Assembly: GCF_021513275.1 (NCBI RefSeq) | Contig: NZ_CP090978.1 | Coordinates: 3,720,001-3,784,000 of the forward strand | DNA: 64,000 nt | DNA from: Paenibacillus hexagrammi | Lineage (GTDB): Bacteria; Bacillota; Bacilli; Paenibacillales; NBRC-103111 | Reading direction: 5' to 3' | Notes under the pieces: generated by a model | The model's input: the letters and a program-made list of their open reading frames with translations, nothing else | Databases searched by the model: none | Told to the model about the DNA's origin: nothing | Position numbers and translations under genes: made by a program | Shown: piece after piece, positions 9,448 to 59,680 of the stretch | How the letters are laid out: each line of letters starts with the position of its first letter | How positions within the stretch are numbered: position 1 is the first letter of the stretch

Positions 9448-11961
9448 TTATCCAAGTATCTTGGATGCTGCAAATGTGAGATCCTTAATATCAATCTTTT
9501 GATCTCGATTTAGATCAGCTATCTTAGCCGTTGCCCAATCTGCACTGTTAGAATCCTTGCCGTAATGATAAGCCACAATCGCTAGATCGCCTACACTTAT
9601 GTGTCCATCTTTGTTGAGATCAGGAGATTTAATAGCTGCTGCCTGAAAGAGTTCTACCGCGCTGCCCAATGCTGCTAAGGCAGTGTCCACCTGAGATTGC
9701 GTCGCATTTGCACTGTCTTTTACCACTTCTGCTGCATCAATCGCAGTACCGAAGGCATCTTTGGCCGCCTGTGGGTATTGGCCTGGTTCTGTGCCAACGA
9801 CAGCAGCTTCATAAAGACTTTGTGCATTCATAATGGCCGTTGTCAGAGCGGACTTATCTACATTTTCTTCTACACTACCAATCGAAATTCTCTTGCTGCC
9901 AAGCGCTGCCTGAAACACGGATCCATCAGAATTAGCAAGTTCTGCCTTAGAAGCTTCAATCGTGCCAATCGTGTCTTGAACACCCGCTTTTACTTTAAAA
10001 TTTAAATTCAAAGCCGGAATGCTTGCTCCAGTTATACCTCCAATGTTAGCTGCAATAAGCCTGACTTTGCCGGCCGTTGTTTTGTCCTCTCCGACAATTT
10101 CAATGTTACTATTTGCCCCTGCCGCACTTACATAGTCAAATTTATCGGCATCATAGGTCAATGTAAGGTCTTCGGCATAAACACGATCTCCCAAGTTGTT
10201 CAAGCTAACTCCCACTGTAAAGCTGCTACCAGGCGTCACACTGTTGTCAGCTGAAAGTGCTGCTGTTGGTACTAGGGTGCCGTTATTCAAATCCGCAACA
10301 AAAGTCGTAACGCTTTGGGCAGGCAGCTCGGCCGTAAAGGAATTATTCGACACATTGAGGGGCGCTCCGGCAACAAGATTCCTAGTGCCATCCGTTAACC
10401 ATGAAGCTACACTCGTTGCGGTCTCGTTTTGCAGAACAAATTTTTGACTCACGGCTGAATTCCCCTTATTTACTGCTACAATAACCGCTTTATTGCTGCC
10501 TTTATATGCAGATATAAATACCTGCGGATCGGGATTTTTAGTGGCTTCTACCCTAACATAGCCGGGTCGGATAAATTTCGAGTATTGGGCCATCATGTAT
10601 CCACGCTTACTTATCGTTCCGTCTTCTTTCATGGGACCGTATTGTCTTCGTATATACCACCATACGTATGTTTGGAAGTTCCCTTCTACCATGGCATTAT
10701 ACATATGCTCTGCAACGCCTAATGCCTCGGGCCAACGATCCGCTGAATTATTCTCACTATTTGGATAGTACACTTCCGTCATCCAGAGTTCTTTACCCGA
10801 ACCTTTCTGTTCAAAAAGCGGGTACGGGAAATCTTTATAACTTGTGCCATACGTGTGAGCGCCTAGAATATCCAAATTTGCTAATGCTTCCGGATCGTTC
10901 AATATCGGGTCTGACATTTGCTTCACGTAAGAAAATGACTCCGGTGCGATAACCCTGTTATGGATAGCTCCCGCATTTTCTTTCATAAAGCGCAGCATTT
11001 CTTCGGGACTCCACCACGTCCAATCGTATGCATAATCAGGCTCATTTTGAACAGAAATCGCATACAGATCCACACCATGACTCTTCATGTATGAATCGAA
11101 TTCATTCAAATACTGTGCATATTCATCGTACATATCATGTTTAAGGCGTTTCGCTGATGGAACTTCAATATATGCAGTTAGGTTGATATTATCGATATTC
11201 GGTCCATCTGCGCCGGTAGTTACCAGTTTTAACGTATTGTTCCCGCTATTCATAGGAACTTGAATGGATCGTTCTCCCCAAGTTGACAGGCTGCCGGTAG
11301 TTGCAAAGGCTACATTAGAGAGCACTTTCGCCCCATTCACATAAACATCTAGATTGCTTGTTTCTTCCTGTTGAGCGTACCGAATCTTTACGTTTTTCGT
11401 GCCTGTACTGCCAATTCCAATATTCCCCCACTGAATGGCCGCACCCGATGCTGCTTGAAAGTTGACATATCCTGTGCCGGAATAACCGGGCTGGGTCGCT
11501 TCCGTTGTGGAACTGGTTAGAGTTGTTCCCGTCTCCGCTTCATATGTGGTGCCGCTCCCTGAGCTCATCCCGAGGGTGAAGGTCTCGAGCATTTCACTTG
11601 GAGGGTTCCATGGAGATGCAAACACGATTGCTCCCCGCTCAATCGCTTTTTTAGCTGTTTCCAGTTCTTTATACCAGTTATTCTTATCTGGATCGATAAA
11701 AATCCTTAAAACAGAAAAACCCAACTGATTCTCTCCGTTACCAAAAGCGGTTTCTCTTTGCTCAGGTGTCAAATCCCCGATCCGCCGGGTGGTTAATCCC
11801 ACCAAATCCACGAATCACTTGCTTCTCTGCCGATAAATTAACAACTACATCATTAGCTTCCGAAGCGGCTAATGCCTCCGTCGATAAGGGGACGAGGAAT
11901 AACGGCAGTGCGGTTACACATGCCAAGAGAATGCTACATGTTTTTTAAAACGTAAATTCAC
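9448..11961 (-). CDS. Secreted GH30 glucuronoxylanase with CBM, cohesin-like, FIVAR and dockerin domains (frameshifted)
   Basis: This is a secreted endo-xylanase of GH30, probably subfamily 8 (XynC-like), which cleaves glucuronoxylan next to methylglucuronate side groups. The acid/base Glu is in VQNEPD and the nucleophile Glu in WMTEVYYP; IRRQYGPMKEDG matches the glucuronate-recognising loop. A CBM6/35-like module of about 120 residues (YEAET...) is inserted inside the barrel, between WNPPSEMLETF and AKRLKHDMY. After the barrel come a cohesin-like domain (VYAEDLTLTYD), a FIVAR domain and a dockerin with two calcium loops (DLNKDGHISVGD, DLNRDQKIDIKD). The frame is broken twice near the start: A6 at 11941-11946 needs A7 to join the GTG start and signal peptide, and two bases are missing from a Trp codon near 11781. 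The GTG follows AAGGAG. Confidence 0.88.
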
Positions 11962-49616: not shown

Positions 49617-50930
49617 TCATCGGTATCCTTCTACGTTCTTGAGGGGATGGACTTTCCAATCCCAATATAGTCCCAATACACCGTAGAGGTACTCATTACT
49701 CCATCTTCGCCATCCGACACTACGCTTTCTTCTCCGTTTTCTTCTCGTCAGCAAGGTTCGTATTTTCATCTCCGTGTAGTCACGCACCTCGCTAAATGCA
49801 TCACTCGAATTGCCAACCCGAAAATAATTCACCCATCCAGCTAATACGGCATTGATCCGTTTCACCATGTCTTTTGCCGGGGTTGCCCCGCCATTTTGGA
49901 TTAGCTCGCGGATTCGCGCCTTGACTGCAATGCGTGCTTTCTTCTTCGGTGTCATGAGGATGAAGTATCCAGTTCCACTACGGTTTGGTACTCGCCTTAA
50001 GTCAAATCCAAGGAAAGCAAATGCCTCGCCTTTCAGGACGTTAACCATCCGAGTTTTCTCCAGATTTAGTTCTACACCCAACGGTTTCAGCTGTTCCTGA
50101 AGTCTTTTAAGAGCTAGTTCAGCCCACCCTTGTTTGCTGGAGTGTCCGCTTACGGTGATCACCATATCATCGGCAAATCGATGGTAATTGACCGCTTCGT
50201 AACTGCCTTCTGCCGTTTTACGCCGAATGGCATCAAATGCCCAGTCTACCTCATTCAGGTAGATATTCGAAGCTAATGGAGAAAACGGCCCACCTTGGGG
50301 TACGCCGATCTTTCCCGCCGCTTTTATCACCTGTTTGATCAGGTGCATCACTTGTGGGTCTTGGATGCGCTTCGACATCTTCTCCAGTAGAATCGAGTGC
50401 CGGATTGTATCAAAGTATCGGGATAAATCGACATCGATTACATTGGTCATGCGTCGCAGTACACTTCGTCTCACTTCGGCTAATGCTTGGTGAGGTGAGC
50501 GCTTCGGTCGAAATCCATACGAATTTGGGCAGAAGTCAGCTTCAAAGATCGCTTCGAGAATCAATTTTAGAGCACCTTGTACAACGCGATCCCGGATTAC
50601 GGGAATTTGTAAAGTTCGCATTTTGCCGTTCGCCTTCGGTATATCTAACTTCCGGTTGGCTTGAGGTTGGTACGTTCCCGTTTGGAGTTCTTCTTGGATG
50701 CCTTCGAGAAACGGGATAACACCCTCTTTTTCCACGTCTGCGAAGCTTTGTCCGTCTGTGCCTGCGGCACCGCCGTTTTTCTTCGCATGTCGGTACGCTT
50801 CATGGAGAGTCGTTATGCTGGTTATGTGGGTAAATAGACCCCAGAACCGATGCGTAGGTTCAGACTTCGCCTTTTGATATATCCGTTGCCTCAGTTCCTG
50901 CAGACTGATGGGTGTTTTTGTCATTTTCAC
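49617..50930 (-). CDS. ltrA: Group II intron reverse transcriptase/maturase
   Basis: This 437-residue protein splices and mobilises the intron. It has RT blocks (GTDGQSFADVE, SYGFRPKRSPHQAL, VIDVDLSRYFDTI, GVPQGGPFSPLASNIYL, the catalytic box HRFADDMVI) and a maturase/X domain (GWVNYFRVGNSSDAFSEV, WRRWSNEYLYG). The active site reads FADD where YADD is usual. No HNH endonuclease domain is present. The start is an ATG inside domain IV; no strong ribosome binding site is seen. Confidence 0.92.
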   Translation of the reverse strand: MKMTKTPISLQELRQRIYQKAKSEPTHRFWGLFTHITSITTLHEAYRHAKKNGGAAGTDGQSFADVEKEGVIPFLEGIQEELQTGTYQPQANRKLDIPKANGKMRTLQIPVIRDRVVQGALKLILEAIFEADFCPNSYGFRPKRSPHQALAEVRRSVLRRMTNVIDVDLSRYFDTIRHSILLEKMSKRIQDPQVMHLIKQVIKAAGKIGVPQGGPFSPLASNIYLNEVDWAFDAIRRKTAEGSYEAVNYHRFADDMVITVSGHSSKQGWAELALKRLQEQLKPLGVELNLEKTRMVNVLKGEAFAFLGFDLRRVPNRSGTGYFILMTPKKKARIAVKARIRELIQNGGATPAKDMVKRINAVLAGWVNYFRVGNSSDAFSEVRDYTEMKIRTLLTRRKRRRKRSVGWRRWSNEYLYGVLGLYWDWKVHPLKNVEGYR

Positions 50931-51443
50931 CCTTGCCTCCTTTGGTTATACGGATTTGTTTACCGGTCCGGACCCTTCCCTCCCCGCGCGTTTTGCTGCA
51001 CGCGGATCTAAAGTACTACGGTCCGATCCGCCACCCTGACATCTGCATGTCCCATTTCCCGATCACGGTTATAGGGAATGCCTCCTCGGTGAGCTTTCTT
51101 CACCGGATGCCGAGGGCTTCTCCAGTTTCCATAACATCTTTCACTCCATGTCGCCGCTGATACCCCGCCGGTGAGAACTGCCGTTTCAGACTCTTTCGGT
51201 CAGTTCTTGCTGCTTTCGCGCGTTATCGACCGTCTCAGCCACCGGAATTGCGTGTAACGAGGCTACGTCTGCGTTCACTGTACGTTACAACCTGGAATTT
51301 TGCCCATGCTCCTTTTGAGCGTGATGTCAGAGGGCTTCACCGTCTCGCTTTCGCTCCACGGCGCCTCTCAGGCTACGGGAGTCTAGTCTTTTCTCCCGGT
51401 CGGACTTTCACCGACTAGATGTTGTGTCCTTAACTGGACACGC

Positions 51444-52407
51444 CAATGCCCCAGCGCATGTTATAAATGGACTTTAGTTCATCGGGTGGGAAGTCTGCGG
51501 CTGAAAGATTCGTGATAACAGTTTCATAAGCGCCACTTGGCAGGACGAAACGAACAACCCGAAAGGAAATTGGATAATACAAGTTTTCATGTAAATCCAA
51601 ATAATCAAATGTTGACTTGGACGGGATGAACTTGTACATCTCGGGATGAGCCTTAACCTCTTTCGTTTGTTTTTTGGTGAGTGTCAAATGAACCTCCTGA
51701 TCAAACTCTCCGCTAGAGGGCAAACTCAAGCCCGAAAGAATACCATTGGAATCCAAATCTTTTACTCGAATGATGTAGTTCCACCCTTTACGCTCAATAT
51801 GCGCGAAATTGTTGTAACTTTCATAGCCTCGATCGGAAATAACGATGATTTTGCCTTTTATAGGGGAACGATCAACCATAGCTGCCAGTGCTCTTCCCTC
51901 GTTACTTAATCTTCGCGGCTGAACAATGGCATCCACGTAAAGTCTGTTGCAGAGGTCATAAGCTGCGTTCAAATGCAAAAGATTGTAGCCTTTCGTGTTC
52001 GGTTGATTTTGAAAGTAGGTGTCCTTGTCCGTAGGATCCGTTGCGATATGTAAATCCGAACCGTCAATCGCAAGCAATCGATAACCACGGTAGTTTTTGA
52101 TATCCGTTTGTGATTGTGTAAATTTGTGAAACAGGAATTCCACAGCAGACGGTAGGATTTTATTCCTCTGCTGAACAAAAGCAGAAGTGGTTGCGGTGTT
52201 TACATCATAACCCTGGGATTCTAAGAGTTCCTTATAGATACTGTTACCGCCCATGGAGATCAGGAGCTGCATGACCGTTTCAAAGGGCAGCTTCTTCTTT
52301 CGGGTAAAATCTCTTTCTGGGTTTTTGACATAGGGTGCGGGTAGCGCTGACATTTCTCGTATGAGGGATGTCAGCGTTTCTTTTAGCGAATTCGCGTAGG
52401 CATTCAC
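51444..52407 (-). CDS. IS4 transposase, 5' exon
   Basis: This N-terminal 321 codons contain the first two catalytic aspartates (AIDGSDLHIATD and VISDRGYES) and end in YNMRWGI of the YREK motif. The start is GTG, 8 bases after GAGGAGG. Translation of the unspliced message would run into the intron and stop after two or three codons (GVSS), giving an inactive protein. Confidence 0.85.
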
Positions 52408-52761: not shown

Positions 52762-55700
52762 CTATTCCATCCCTAGAATCAATCGTGCGATTTGAGCCAG
52801 ATCTTCAATTCCAATCTTACCATCGCCACTCAGGTCCGCTGCTTTGTAGGTAGCCCAGTCCGCATCGCTGCTGGTTTTGCCGTAGCCGCTTGCCACGATA
52901 GCCAGATCCCCAACGGTTACATGACCTTCTCCGTTCATATCTCCCGGTATCGAAGGATTAACAGGTATGATCGCGATCGATTTCGCAGCAGCTGCAAGTT
53001 CCGTTTCATCGCCGTTTCCGTTAGAAATAACTGCTTGAGTTAAAGTAATGACAGTGCTGGCTGAAGCGGCATCTGACTTTGCTTTGAATTTCAGCTTCAC
53101 GAGATCTCCTGCTGATTGCACAGCATTCTCCGAGCCCAAGCTTGCGAGCAGTAGCCGCACCTGACCGGAAGCTTCCTTCTTGCTGATGATCTGAAGTCCT
53201 TCCTTGACGGATTCCGCTGAGTCAAATTCAACTGCGGACGGATCATAAGTGAAGGTCAGATCTTGAGCATAGACGCTATCTGTGACACTCTCTAGACCAT
53301 AAGCAACTTCGAATTCCGCACCGCCGGTAACTTGATCCGAGGCGTTCAGTACTGCGCTGATTGGGCCTGCTGGAGCCGCATCATCCGCTACCTCTAACCG
53401 AATGGCATCATACATGATGCTGGCCATAGGGTTCATCCAATCGTCGGAGGTCGGGGCAGTAGGAGTTTGATGCGGCGAGAGCGTTATGATGTTCTCTCCC
53501 TCATGAATCAGATTTGCATCAAATTGAATGGGATCCAATTGTCGGTACACACTGCGAACAGCCAATCGGTATAAGGCGTTGTCTCCAGGGGGCCCCGGCA
53601 GTGTTTCAAAGCTCCCGACGGGGGTACCGTTCAGCTTTACATCGAGAGAACCGAATACAGAGCTTGCAAGGGCAATATTCAAGGTTGCGGTACCTTCCTG
53701 ATATCCATCCGAATCAAAGCGGATTTTCCATTCGGTTAGCGACTGGTCTTCCGTTGTGCCTCGCAGATCCAGCTGAGTTGGGGTGCCTGGTGTCTTAAAC
53801 ATCGGCTGGAAGTAGTTCCAGTCTGTTTTCGGATCGCTTTCTCCGATTTTAAAGTCAACACCATTCGGGAATTCATACGGATACTCCAGCCAGGTCAAAT
53901 GCTTTCTAAAGCCCTCTTCTCCGCCGTATACATGGAATTCCTCGGCTGAGCGGTCCGGTGTACCGATCTGCCAGACCAGGTCTCCATATTTTGCAGGTGT
54001 CCATCTTATCGTACCAAGATCAAGCGGAGTGGCGCTTCCCACCGTGATATTTTCTTGTTTATATTCTCCCATTACGCCATCTACAAAGGCCGTCAGCGTA
54101 TAGGTGCCCGGACGTACGGCAGGAATCGTAAATTTACCGTCAGCACCGGCGCGAGCCGAATATGTATAGCTTTCTGTATCCAGCTGCCAATCTATGCCAG
54201 GACGCGATAGAATGACATGTGCCTCGTTTGCGGAGGAGCCGTCGGAAATTTCCAGCTTTCCGCTCACATCAGATCGGCTGGACGCCGCATAGGTCGGATC
54301 GGTAATCCAGGTATACGGCCATTTGGCTTGCTCCTCGCTTGCTTTCGCTTTGGCGTCCTCCCACATCTCCTGCACATTGGCAACAGATGCATCCGAACCG
54401 GAGCCTTCATTTACATACAAGTAGAAGGGGCCATAGACCTTTTCCCAGCCTTTCGCAGGCTCGATTGCAGGAGTTCCGTAATGGCCGGTATGCTCATGCC
54501 ACAGCAGAATTTCCCCGTTATAGTAATCATGAACCGTTAAATCCTGCTTGGTTGGTCCGCCGTCCACATATTCCTTACTCGCTTGAATGATGGATACGCC
54601 GACCTTGCCGTTGGAAGCCATAAACACATGATTGTCGCCTTCCATATTCGAGATATTCTGATATTTTGAATAGATTCTGCCCTCAGGCAAGTCGGCGCCT
54701 GGCAGCAGATACGTAGTATCTTGAAGCGTAGTATCGTTGCTCAAATCGTCAATGGTCGGTCTTTGCTGAATACCGCGCTGATCGTCCACGGCAAAGTAAG
54801 TAAAGGAAGGATCGCCGAGCGCAAAAGCATATCTTAATTGACCGATGCTTAAGCCGTCAGGCATCGTATCGGGATACTTATAAACCGTGTAATAATAGAA
54901 GCCCGGTGAGTCTTTCTCCAGCACCATATGAACTTCCAGGTAGAATTGAAGGGTGCTCGGATCATTGACCGTCATGGAAATCTCTGCGCGTTCAGGCGTT
55001 TGAGAGACCACCTTGAAGTCGGCTCCCGATATGCCTTTCTGATAGGATGTGCCGTCAACACTATAATTGGCCAGATAATAGCCTCTGCCGTTTTGGCCTC
55101 CTACTAAGTTGAAATAAGGATTTTTACTGTCGGTAAAAAAGATCGATGATATATTTGCCGTTGTTTTATTGACATCGAAGGAAATTTTGGAGTTCTTCAG
55201 CGTAACGGTGCTGCCGTTATCGACGAGTGTAACATCTTGCGGAGGTGTGTTGTCTCCGTCCCCCGACCTGCTGATCTCAATACCGTTCAGACGTCCGTCG
55301 TTCCCAGTGATCGTGAACACCATCTTGCCTTCCGTAACAGGAACGGAAGCGTTCAGTTCTGCGAACTGTCCTTTTGGCGTGCTTGTCGACCCAAGATCAA
55401 TACCTTCTGCAGTAACTGCCGTTCTGTTCGACGCAATGTCGTCTCCTGCGATTACCTTCACATTATATACATCATTTGGCAGATCAACCTGAAAGGTATA
55501 GGATTGGCTTGAGATCACAAAATCTCTCAGCAGAGAATTCGAATTGGTCGAACGATCGCGAGAGTCGATCGCTTGGTTTAGCCCGTAGCCTTTCTCCGCC
55601 GTGTAGATCAGTGAAGGCCCAACTCCTATATAGCCGTCGGCCACCACACTTGATGACGTGCCGAAATCAAATTTTAGAGGAAATTGCTGCTCGGCAGCAA

Positions 55701-55791
55701 ACGCTGATTTGGGATTGAAGCTGCCTAGAATAAGAGTGAACATAACGGCCACCATTATCATGATGGATATTGAGCTTTGTTTTCGTTTCAT
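52762..55791 (-). CDS. Secreted PL4 rhamnogalacturonan lyase with cohesin-like and dockerin domains
   Basis: This 1009-residue exo-enzyme precursor probably cleaves the RG-I pectin backbone by beta-elimination. A signal peptide (residues 1-33) and an N-terminal beta-sandwich module (37-175, PLKFDFGTSSSVVADGYIGV) come first. The PL4-type catalytic domain (about 187-530) includes HEHTGHYGTP and GWEKVYGPFYLYVN. Then follow an Fn3-like domain (VSGKLEISDG) and a jelly-roll module. The C-terminus is a cohesin-like domain (VYAQDLTFTYDPSAVEF) and a dockerin (DMNGEGHVTVGD, DLSGDGKIGIED). The ATG with GGAGGG 6 bases upstream was chosen over an ATG 53 codons earlier. It lies 68 bases after the CE12 gene, in the same operon. 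Confidence 0.88.
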   Translation of the reverse strand: MKRKQSSISIMIMVAVMFTLILGSFNPKSAFAAEQQFPLKFDFGTSSSVVADGYIGVGPSLIYTAEKGYGLNQAIDSRDRSTNSNSLLRDFVISSQSYTFQVDLPNDVYNVKVIAGDDIASNRTAVTAEGIDLGSTSTPKGQFAELNASVPVTEGKMVFTITGNDGRLNGIEISRSGDGDNTPPQDVTLVDNGSTVTLKNSKISFDVNKTTANISSIFFTDSKNPYFNLVGGQNGRGYYLANYSVDGTSYQKGISGADFKVVSQTPERAEISMTVNDPSTLQFYLEVHMVLEKDSPGFYYYTVYKYPDTMPDGLSIGQLRYAFALGDPSFTYFAVDDQRGIQQRPTIDDLSNDTTLQDTTYLLPGADLPEGRIYSKYQNISNMEGDNHVFMASNGKVGVSIIQASKEYVDGGPTKQDLTVHDYYNGEILLWHEHTGHYGTPAIEPAKGWEKVYGPFYLYVNEGSGSDASVANVQEMWEDAKAKASEEQAKWPYTWITDPTYAASSRSDVSGKLEISDGSSANEAHVILSRPGIDWQLDTESYTYSARAGADGKFTIPAVRPGTYTLTAFVDGVMGEYKQENITVGSATPLDLGTIRWTPAKYGDLVWQIGTPDRSAEEFHVYGGEEGFRKHLTWLEYPYEFPNGVDFKIGESDPKTDWNYFQPMFKTPGTPTQLDLRGTTEDQSLTEWKIRFDSDGYQEGTATLNIALASSVFGSLDVKLNGTPVGSFETLPGPPGDNALYRLAVRSVYRQLDPIQFDANLIHEGENIITLSPHQTPTAPTSDDWMNPMASIMYDAIRLEVADDAAPAGPISAVLNASDQVTGGAEFEVAYGLESVTDSVYAQDLTFTYDPSAVEFDSAESVKEGLQIISKKEASGQVRLLLASLGSENAVQSAGDLVKLKFKAKSDAASASTVITLTQAVISNGNGDETELAAAAKSIAIIPVNPSIPGDMNGEGHVTVGDLAIVASGYGKTSSDADWATYKAADLSGDGKIGIEDLAQIARLILGME

Positions 55792-55859
55792 AGTTACCCT
55801 CCGCATCTTGAACATTTGAAGAGCGATTCTGCGCCCACAAGCGTCAGAATCGCCACTCC

Positions 55860-58800
55860 TTACTCCAGTATTTTGCTGGCAACAGCCGCCAAATCCTGAA
55901 TATCGATGATACCGTCTTGGACAATATCGGCTTCTTGATAGCTGGACCACTCCGCATCTGCGGATGTCTTGCCGTAAGCGGCTGCCACAATAGCCAGGTC
56001 ACCGACCGTGAATGCTCCGTCTCCGTTCATATCGCCAGGAGATGCCGTATGAACGGACGACAGGAAAGCTTGAACCGCCGTATTCAGCTCTTGAACGGCC
56101 TGCTCTACCTGCTCCTGCGTTGCCGAAGCATCATTCACGATTGTCTTCGCTTGATCGATAGCCGTTTGGAGTGCAGCTTTGGCTCCGGCAGGATATTGAC
56201 CGGCATGATCACCTTCTATGGCCGAATCATGCTTCGCCTGTGCGTCGGCAATCGCTGTAAGCAAAGTCGTTTTATCAGCTGTTGCTTGAATCTGTATGGT
56301 TTTGGAAGTACCGAGCGCAGCACTCTCCGTACCCTCGCCGTTTGCAAGAATCGCCTTGCTCACAAGGATGGCTGCTTCCCCCGACTGGGACAGCGCCTTC
56401 CAGTTCAGCTTCAGCAAGTCTCCTCCTGCTTGAAGCGCACTGTCCTGCCCCAGAGCGGCTGCAATGATGCGCACGCTGCCCGGAGTCGCTTCCGGGTCGG
56501 AAACAGCAAGCATTTGATAACCTTCCTGGAGCGATTCCGCAGAAACGAATTCCACCTGGTTAGGATCATACGTGATGGTCAGGTCCTGGGCATACACATT
56601 CTCTGTGATGCCACTTAGTCCATATGTCAAATAGAAAGGTTGACCGGATGCGACAGTGGATGAGCCAGTTAATGTCGTTGACGTCTCATCAGAGACAGGT
56701 GACTGATCCAGTGGAGTAAGCTCAACACCGTTGACAATACCGGTTGCACCGCCGAACACAAAGTTGATTTGACCGTCAGTTACATTTACTTCGTTAATCA
56801 CCTTTTCGGTTACAGACTTGCTAGGCGCTGATACCGTACCGTAGCTTTGACCTTCAACTGTAACATCCGTTTTGGCGGTTCCCAGATAATCGCCCACATA
56901 TAACTTCACTGCGTAAGTTCCGTTAGGAACATCGACCTTAAACTCCCAGTTGTTTGAAAAATATCCCAGCCAGTCGTTTGTCAATTCGTTGCCGCCGGTA
57001 CGCTCACGAGTGATCATGCCCTCCGTAGAGGTGATCCCGTAGCCCTTCTCCGGTGTATAAACCGAATCGAAAGTAATCGCTGTGTATCCTTCCATGACGG
57101 GACTCGTAACTGTTCCCATGTCGTATTTATACGTTGCTGACTTCGTTGTAATGGAAAGCCTATCAGACATATCCGATTCGCCACGCCCGTTCACCGCTGA
57201 AATCCGAACATCATAAGTCGTATTGTCCTGCATACTTCCTATGCTTGCGGTTGGGATTGTAGACGATCCTACCATCGTATAATCTGTATCAGTGGCAAGC
57301 TTGCGGTAAATTCTGTAGATATCGGCGCCAGTAACTGTATCCCATTTGAGCACGGCAGCCGCATTGCTGATACTGCTTGCAGTTAAGCCTGTCGGCTTCG
57401 CCGGCACTTCAGCGGGAACCTCAATATCCTTGACATACCCCGATAATGGCAAGCTTAACTCTCTAATGCCTCCCGAGAGCAAGCGGGCTAGCTGGATCGC
57501 GCCATATTCCTGGAAATGCGTATCGTCTGCGTCGCCGTTAGGGAATGCGGCATAGACACCTGGCTCCACATGCAGGAATACGGATAGTGATGCGGCGGGA
57601 CCAATTGAATCATAATAAGCCACGCTCAGCGTGCTTAAATCCACCAACTTCACGTTCAATTCTTGGGCGACCTCTTTCATGCCCGCTACATAACCAGCGA
57701 AGCTTACATTGAACTTGCCTGTGGCTTCGTCGAAGCTGCGGCGTCCCATCGGCGTGACCAGAATCGGTGTAGCTCCGCGCTGCCTCGCTCCGTTCACATA
57801 GCTTTTCAGATATACTTTGTAATCGGCAACAGAAGCGTAGCGCTCAGGTACGCTGATGGTGGAATCATTATGACCGAACTGGACAAGGAAATAATCCCCC
57901 GGTTTGATCTCGCGAAGAATCTCGTCCAAACGTCCTTCCACGATAAACGACTTCGAGCTTCGGCCGCCGATTGCCTTATTCAAGAAATGGACATCATCTG
58001 TGAAAAATTTCGGAATCATTTGCCCCCAGCCGGCTTGCGGCCGCCAATATGGATCATAGGTCTGAACGGTGGAATCTCCCGCGATGTAGACATCCGGTTT
58101 CTCTCCCGCTTGCCTTTCCGGCAGCTTCGTGATGACAATCGCATTGATTTTCGGCGCTGTACCGGAGAACTGGAGATTCAGCTGTCCGTCTATAAGCGCA
58201 ATGTCAAAGCTTGTTTCGAGATACTCGCCGGCTTCTTTACTTGTTTCCTGAACTTTTTGAATCGTTTCGGCTTTAATGGCAACGTCCGTGGCTTCAGATT
58301 CATCCCCGGCAATTAGCGATACGGTGTAATCGCCATTAGGAAGATCCACAGCAAAGGATGTATCGGCAGGTGCGGCAAAATCGCTCTTCAGCGGGTCCGC
58401 TCCCCCCTATCTTCAGCGCTGACCTTGCTTGGATCAGTAAATCCATATTGTAACTGCTCGTTGTATGCTGTCGTAGAAGCTACCCCGATATATCCATCGG
58501 CCACAGCACCGGATCCAAAATCAAACTTTATTGGGGTGCCTTCCGGCAGCGGCTGCGGTGCGGAGTAAGGCGTACTCCTTGCAGCGCTGGAGAATAGTGA
58601 CAGCCCGCTGACATTCACTGCTTTTACTTTGTAATACCAAGCTGTAGATGTGTCTGCCGTGGTGTCCGTGTAATTCGTCGAATCCGTCGTTCCGATTTCT
58701 ACGTAGTCACCGTTTTCCTCATCGGATCTGAAAATCGTGTAGCTCGCCGCATAGTTCACTGCCGTCCACGATAGACTAACTTCATCTTCTGCTATATGGA

Positions 58801-59680
58801 TGATTGACACGTCCGCAGGTGCTGCGGGAGCCTCACTTGGCGGCTTCACCTCAACCGTAACCGCGTCGCTGAATGCGGATTCAAGACCAGCGGCATTTAC
58901 CGCAGATACCTGATACGAGTAACGATTGTTGAACACAGCTGTAGCATCCGTATAAGCGGCCGCGTCAGTCGAACCGAGCTTGGTATACTCTTCGCTGCCG
59001 AAGGTAGCCCGATACACATTGTAGCTTGCAGCATCCGGCACATTGCTCCACTGCAAGCTTACAGCGGATTCATTCTCGCTTGCAGAAACGGAGCTTACAG
59101 CAAGTCCTTGCGGAGCAGCAGGCGGCTCCTGAGTTACCTGTTCAATGACCATACCATTGACATATCCGCCCGCGCCGACCCCCGTGATACCAACTGTTAA
59201 TTGACCGTCCGTAACTGTGGTATGAAATGTCTCTTCAGCCACCGCTTGTTTCGTTTGGATGGTCCCTTTCGTCTCACCCTCCAGGGAAACCGTCGTCTTG
59301 GTCGTTGAAGTTCCCGTCAGCAGATCGCCTGAATAGACCGTCACATCATATTCTCCGTCAGGTACATCCACCATAAAGGTATAATCCGTACCTAAAATAA
59401 AATCGTTGTACAAATCATCCGATCCTGTACGAAGTCTGGAAATAACCGACTTATCCAACCCGTACCCCAGCTCCGGCGTATAAAGCAGCCCGTCATGCAC
59501 CTGATGATATCCACTCATCACCGGACTTGATTGCGTACCAAAATCGAACTTCATAACGCCTGACAGCGTTTCGGCATGAACTGTATTTACTCCCTGCGGA
59601 GTGAGCGGCAATACGCTGGAAGCCAGCATAAAGGCGCCAATGGATACGGTCAATGCACGCTTAGTTTTTCTTCTTGTCAT
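55860..59680 (-). CDS. Secreted CE12 rhamnogalacturonan acetylesterase with Fn3, CBM, cohesin-like, FIVAR and dockerin domains (frameshifted)
   Basis: Reconstructed length is about 1273 residues. Order: signal peptide; beta-sandwich carbohydrate-binding-like module (FDFGTQSSPVMSGY); two Fn3 domains; a second FDFGSG module; a CE12 SGNH esterase domain (AGDSTVQTYDPYWRPQAGWGQ with Ser, GGRSSKSF, GHND, DDTHFQEYGA with Asp/His); a third Fn3; another sandwich module; a cohesin-like domain (VYAQDLTITYDPNQVEF); FIVAR; and a dockerin (DMNGDGAFTVGD, DIVQDGIIDIQD). The frame changes at C6 (58402-58407, plus strand), where seven would be needed. Substrate: acetyl groups on RG-I, making it accessible to the lyase encoded next. 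Confidence 0.88.

Follow-up and report, generated by a model that had tools for sequence, protein, structure and literature searches.

Can secreted enzymes that each carry both a cohesin and a dockerin assemble with one another, and how widely does such an arrangement occur? This question is raised by a 64,000-nucleotide stretch of the Paenibacillus hexagrammi genome (NZ_CP090978.1, positions 3,720,001 to 3,784,000; hereafter the window), which encodes a PL4 rhamnogalacturonan lyase, a CE12-type GDSL esterase and a GH30 glucuronoxylanase-like enzyme. An earlier note on the window had assigned a cohesin-like domain and a dockerin to the end of each enzyme, with a FIVAR module between them in two of the three, and had suggested that the enzymes link head to tail or mixed into a soluble chain without a scaffoldin. 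The domain assignment is borne out: all three proteins carry the two modules at the C-terminus in the order cohesin-(FIVAR)-dockerin, the FIVAR module being present in the CE12 and GH30 enzymes and absent from the PL4 enzyme. We regard it as somewhat probable that this tail is a self-complementary docking cassette, through which enzymes form mixed oligomers without a multi-cohesin backbone and for which cohesin proteins with S-layer homology (SLH) domains serve as anchors.

The whole-genome search for the same tail, which the earlier note had proposed, leads far beyond the window. Pfam alone matches 48 dockerins and 53 cohesins in the 6.64 Mb genome and places 41 cohesin-dockerin pairs on a shared frame, in 40 frames. 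Hidden Markov models (HMMs) of the tail, built from 40 of these 41 tails (alignment A1; the tail with a 164-residue gap was excluded) and run on the stretches around all Pfam matches, recovered 46 pairs in 45 frames with both modules, one module being no more than partial in two of the 45 (1496491 and 2804554). Besides these, three frames hold a cohesin alone and five a dockerin alone, and all but one of these eight border one another or one of the 45, as fragments of genes split by frame breaks; the tail HMMs miss divergent dockerins and some SLH-cohesins found by Pfam. Chance matching as the source of the paired modules is ruled out by this census. The cohesin precedes the dockerin in all 46 pairs and the final dockerin lies at most 10 residues from the frame end. 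Spacing between the modules is stepped and leaves few linker residues free, with gaps of 3–14 residues in eight pairs, 79–84 residues (one FIVAR) in 35 and 147–164 residues in three, corresponding to 0, 1 or 2 FIVAR modules; FIVAR thus separates the modules in 38 of the 46 pairs, and the PL4 tail is among the eight without it. Catalytic partners recognised by Pfam include GH2, GH3, GH9, GH10, GH27, GH28 with CE8, GH31, GH43, a GH51-type arabinofuranosidase, GH67 (C-terminal part), GH92, GH115, GH127 and PL4. Judged from their sequences, the tailed enzymes appear to target mainly hemicellulose and pectin; several tail-bearing frames have no recognised catalytic domain. A crude signal-peptide rule was passed by 21 of 48 frames, a count that is not an estimate of secretion because, on visual inspection, some of the 27 failures do have a signal-like stretch, and many begin mid-gene at frame breaks.

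A second genome of the same genus (G014), in which the best 150 of 220 dockerin candidates were scored, contains at least 101 dockerin and 120 cohesin matches, 119 of the latter over the Pfam cut-off. Of the 101 dockerins listed, 94 lie in the same open frame as a cohesin, and 95 of the 120 cohesins are accompanied by a dockerin in their frame; in all 94 cases the cohesin is on the N-terminal side, with gaps of 4–29 (28 cases), 81–102 (61) or 161–172 residues (5). Across 30 genomes of the genus, cohesins were detected in 29 and dockerins in 27, the counts of the two rising together (Spearman 0.97, with the cohesin counts of two genomes being lower bounds). At family level the tail profile matched at least 89 of 104 genomes at E 0.001, partial matches included; scored candidates per genome often numbered 24, and not every match represents a whole tail. 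A wide spread outside the family is ruled out by a scan of the phylum, for which 398 genomes were drawn evenly, P. hexagrammi included, and at most six candidates were scored per genome. At 1e-20 two of the 398 genomes matched among the candidates scored, namely P. hexagrammi, the sole bearer of the whole tail, and one with a FIVAR-only stretch. Homologues with a named source were nearly all from Paenibacillus (in one of two lists, with 120 of 269 listed), the others among the matches listed being one Bacillus sp., one Cohnella and one Paenibacillaceae bacterium. FIVAR modules were also observed in Paenibacillus NEAT-domain SLH proteins (P0096, P0117, P0141, P0168 and P0176), for which the precomputed Pfam list gives no cohesin or dockerin domain.

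Searched against the PDB, the tail profile gave as its top match the FIVAR-dockerin modular pair 2jnk (also in 2ozn; E 3e-28), followed by the X82 cohesins 2vo8, 2jh2, 2o4e, 2ozn_A and 2w1n (E 5.6e-15 to 1.7e-13), to which the tail cohesin is homologous. According to its description, the entry 2OZN is the cohesin-dockerin complex formed by NagJ and NagH of Clostridium perfringens, and since the best PDB matches of both halves of the tail are the partners of this complex, assembly head to tail or in mixed order suggests itself most readily. Conservation was assessed over 230 unique full tails. At the dockerin loop-1 recognition positions 10–11, I or V occurs with a frequency of 0.99 and G with 0.94, in line with the IG of the C. 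perfringens dockerin. For the cohesin, the mean column entropy of the more hydrophilic strand residues, taken as outward, was compared with that of core-facing residues: outward residues were the more conserved in strand 3 (0.73 vs 1.11) and strand 6 (0.85 vs 1.47), whereas in strands 1, 2, 7 and 9 outward entropy was higher than core-facing. Based on the homology to the 2OZN partners, the stepped anatomy within one frame and the conserved exposed residues of strands 3 and 6, the tail cohesin and dockerin are probably complementary and the enzymes probably join in trans.

Candidate anchors are present outside the window. Among nine proteins scanned, five carry both cohesin and SLH domains by Pfam (642, 885, 615, 347 and 1181 amino acids, the 885-residue protein with two cohesins), and a sixth protein of 1899 amino acids has a cohesin and FIVAR followed by SLH, without a dockerin. 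The 1181-residue protein has the architecture GH53-Big4-CBM-cohesin-SLH (CBM, carbohydrate-binding module) and occurs at full length in 5 of the 30 genus genomes; GH53-cohesin-SLH homologues have YAQD, YAED or FAED at the motif. In addition, a 535-residue protein with the order Coh-FIVAR-Doc-Coh-Doc and no recognised catalytic domain (L001:1412-3016, minus strand; Coh, cohesin; Doc, dockerin) could extend or branch chains. With six SLH-anchored cohesin proteins and the Coh-FIVAR-Doc-Coh-Doc protein in the genome, assemblies need not be the soluble chains of the earlier note. The remark that no scaffoldin is visible holds within the window, but its extension to the organism is ruled out by the SLH-cohesin proteins; of the proposal of head-to-tail or mixed assembly without a scaffoldin, the two modules and their likely pairing stand, and the part 'without a scaffoldin' is not supported. 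A further two-gene arrangement was observed (L003:3864-9963 and L002:616-5591), in which an Ig-like-domain dockerin protein adjoins an SLH protein with one or two cohesins. Its dockerin loop 1 has SA or PA, versus IG or VG in the tails, and similar dockerin/SLH-cohesin neighbours occur in other genomes of the genus; by sequence these look like a separate pair of another type.

If the tail is a self-complementary docking cassette, each secreted enzyme would present a cohesin as socket and a dockerin as plug, both with the same specificity, and the cohesin of one enzyme would bind the dockerin of another in trans. Dozens of hemicellulose- and pectin-degrading enzymes would join in this way into mixed chains without a multi-cohesin backbone, and dockerin-less SLH-cohesin proteins such as GH53-cohesin-SLH would capture the dockerin left free at the chain end and keep the assembly attached to the cell. 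A bolder version, in which a single specificity is common to between 40 and more than 90 different secreted proteins in each genome, and these copolymerise head to tail in any order into mixed fibres fixed to the cell by SLH-cohesins, with a composition set by expression and not by a backbone gene, is offered tentatively, as a possibility falling a little short of probable. Several points weigh against these proposals. In known complexes, cohesin strands 8-3-6-5 bind the dockerin; in the tails, strands 5 and 8 have no conserved outward face (strands 4 and 5 were not clearly divided), so that two of the four binding strands fit. Mean-field coupling analysis of the 230 unique full tails (552 aligned stretches less 322 partial or duplicate ones; effective number of sequences, Meff, 169 at 80% identity) revealed no excess of couplings between cohesin and dockerin, with 31 of the top 200 pairs versus approximately 46 expected by pair numbers, an outcome that one shared specificity would yield, as would absence of binding. 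Four of the six SLH-cohesin proteins score 14, 20 or 17 bits or have no match to the tail-cohesin HMM, versus 69 bits for the 1181-residue and 40 bits for the 1899-residue protein, and therefore only two resemble natural partners of the tail dockerins. The binding of the Paenibacillus pairs is something we infer, and the predicted tail models do not discriminate cis from trans docking. The accessible part of a study of C. perfringens (PMC12997984) speaks on both sides. In favour of the proposals, three cohesins strongly bound three dockerins; against them, enzyme-linked immunosorbent assay (ELISA) showed no dockerin binding for the cohesins of GH31 and GH3. GH31 is the sole C. perfringens protein with both modules, which calls for caution, although AlphaFold 3 (AF3) predicted binding for it.

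The same modules could be put to other uses. With a plug and a socket of the same specificity on one chain, closure would be thermodynamically attractive, and the modules of a chain might satisfy each other by docking in cis or in closed reciprocal dimers or small rings, which would stabilise or pair enzymes and give no extended chains. The predicted template modelling (pTM) scores of the CE12 and PL4 tail models, 0.76 and 0.72, suggest a fairly defined module arrangement of the kind that such closure might involve; the 3–14 residues between the modules in eight of 46 pairs, and the 79–84 residues including FIVAR in 35, would leave little slack to fold back for docking in cis, and we consider self-satisfied modules unlikely. 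A division of labour between the modules appears rather improbable. The dockerin would then dock on the SLH-cohesins present in the genome and the cohesin would take other, perhaps foreign, dockerin proteins, the two differing in specificity (type switching), as has been proposed for adaptors of P. guangzhouensis in the accessible part of PMC11557425. Such switching sits poorly with the fact that the two modules most closely resemble the partner halves of a single cognate pair, and few dockerins are found outside cohesin frames (7 of the 101 listed in G014, contig-end fragments included). Finally, the modules may no longer bind each other and may serve as spacers, or to bind polysaccharide or the cell wall. 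Mutual binding is what we infer, and the missing coupling excess and the two C. perfringens cohesins that bound nothing by ELISA (accessible part of PMC12997984) would agree with a loss; against it, the exposed residues of strands 3 and 6 and dockerin loop 1 are conserved over 230 tails and the modules occur together for 94 of the 101 G014 dockerins listed, making loss of function very unlikely.

In the window itself, all three genes lie on the minus strand. The PL4 gene spans 52762..55791, with a likely start at 55791; its cohesin (52975..53337) is a Pfam match with a predicted structure and fold match, and the dockerin (52774..52947) follows 6–9 residues behind it without FIVAR. Scanning the genome contigs with PL4 gave no confirmed relative. 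The CE12 gene is split by a frame break near 58405 into an N-terminal frame (58388..59680) with a signal-like peptide, a galactose-binding domain and fn3, and a C-terminal frame (55860..58349) with the esterase, fn3, a galactose-binding domain, cohesin (56289..56675; Pfam match, predicted structure and fold matches), FIVAR (56067..56276) and dockerin (55866..56039; Pfam match). The GH30 frame (9448..11811), whose N-terminus lies upstream in a different frame, contains a CBM6-type module inside the GH30 domain, followed by cohesin (9919..10245; Pfam match), FIVAR (9655..9858) and dockerin (9472..9621; Pfam match). The GH30 and CE12 catalytic domains were assigned through PDB matches. Structure prediction of the tails, also suggested by the earlier note, gave CE12 and PL4 models that match known folds, with the dockerin part hardly covered in the fold list of the PL4 model.

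Some further features of these genes were observed. The GH30 domain is split by a CBM6/CBM35-like module (PDB stretch 82–212; GH30 stretch 218–511), for which the best CBM match is the module of Xyn30D itself; in Xyn30D the corresponding CBM module is C-terminal. Immediately downstream of the PL4 gene, at 49617-52407 on the minus strand, are a group II intron reverse transcriptase and a DDE transposase. Frame changes break many long enzyme genes of the assembly (L005, L009, L010, L016, L036 and L037; in the window at 58388-58420 and ~11811) and may be assembly indels.

Should the tail act as a self-complementary docking cassette, soil Paenibacillus would possess a multi-enzyme machine without a backbone gene, into which a further enzyme could be recruited by acquiring a single tail. 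Two or three purified tails would be enough to put enzyme assembly outside classical cellulosomes to the test, and enzyme tags that assemble by themselves would have uses in biotechnology. The cohesin count of G014 (120, or 119 over the Pfam cut-off) exceeds the 79 cohesins of Pseudobacteroides cellulosolvens, called the most complex cellulosome in a 2024 survey (accessible part of PMC11557425). The earlier view of the system as not well described needs qualification, as the C. perfringens pair (accessible part of PMC12997984) and dockerin-cohesin proteins of P. guangzhouensis (accessible part of PMC11557425) are already known; what is new here is the reading of the tail as self-complementary, the stepped architecture of the tail, its spread within one family, and a genome with 120 cohesin matches. 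In the literature searched, no paper was found that reads the tail as self-complementary, a weak absence as a dedicated paper may have been missed.

Like cellulosomes, the system includes dockerin-bearing enzymes, and its folds as well as the order cohesin, X module, dockerin match the Coh-X-Doc end of CipA (3kcp, 4fl4). It differs in that the enzymes themselves bear cohesins, with cohesin and dockerin on the same protein. No scaffoldin with three or more cohesins was found in the P. hexagrammi genome, where a frame has at most two Pfam cohesin matches, although frame breaks could hide a longer one; a classical cellulosome is ruled out by this number, by the 45 frames with both modules and by the 94 of 101 listed G014 dockerins with a cohesin. 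In P. guangzhouensis, the accessible part of PMC11557425 reports 35 cohesin proteins, of which 28 pair a single dockerin with a single cohesin, in many cases alongside a GH domain, and five are SLH-anchoring. These monovalent adaptor scaffoldins, which likewise combine one dockerin and one cohesin beside SLH-anchoring scaffoldins, are very probably the same kind of system as the tails. The difference is one of interpretation: they were taken as adaptors, with an enzyme-rich surface or the scavenging of foreign dockerin proteins suggested as their role, and the words FIVAR, X82 and perfringens do not occur in the accessible part of that text. By profile and fold, the modules of the tails are the same as those of the C. 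perfringens X82 cohesin/FIVAR-dockerin pair (NagJ-NagH, 2OZN), which are carried, as here, on glycoside hydrolases without a multi-cohesin backbone.

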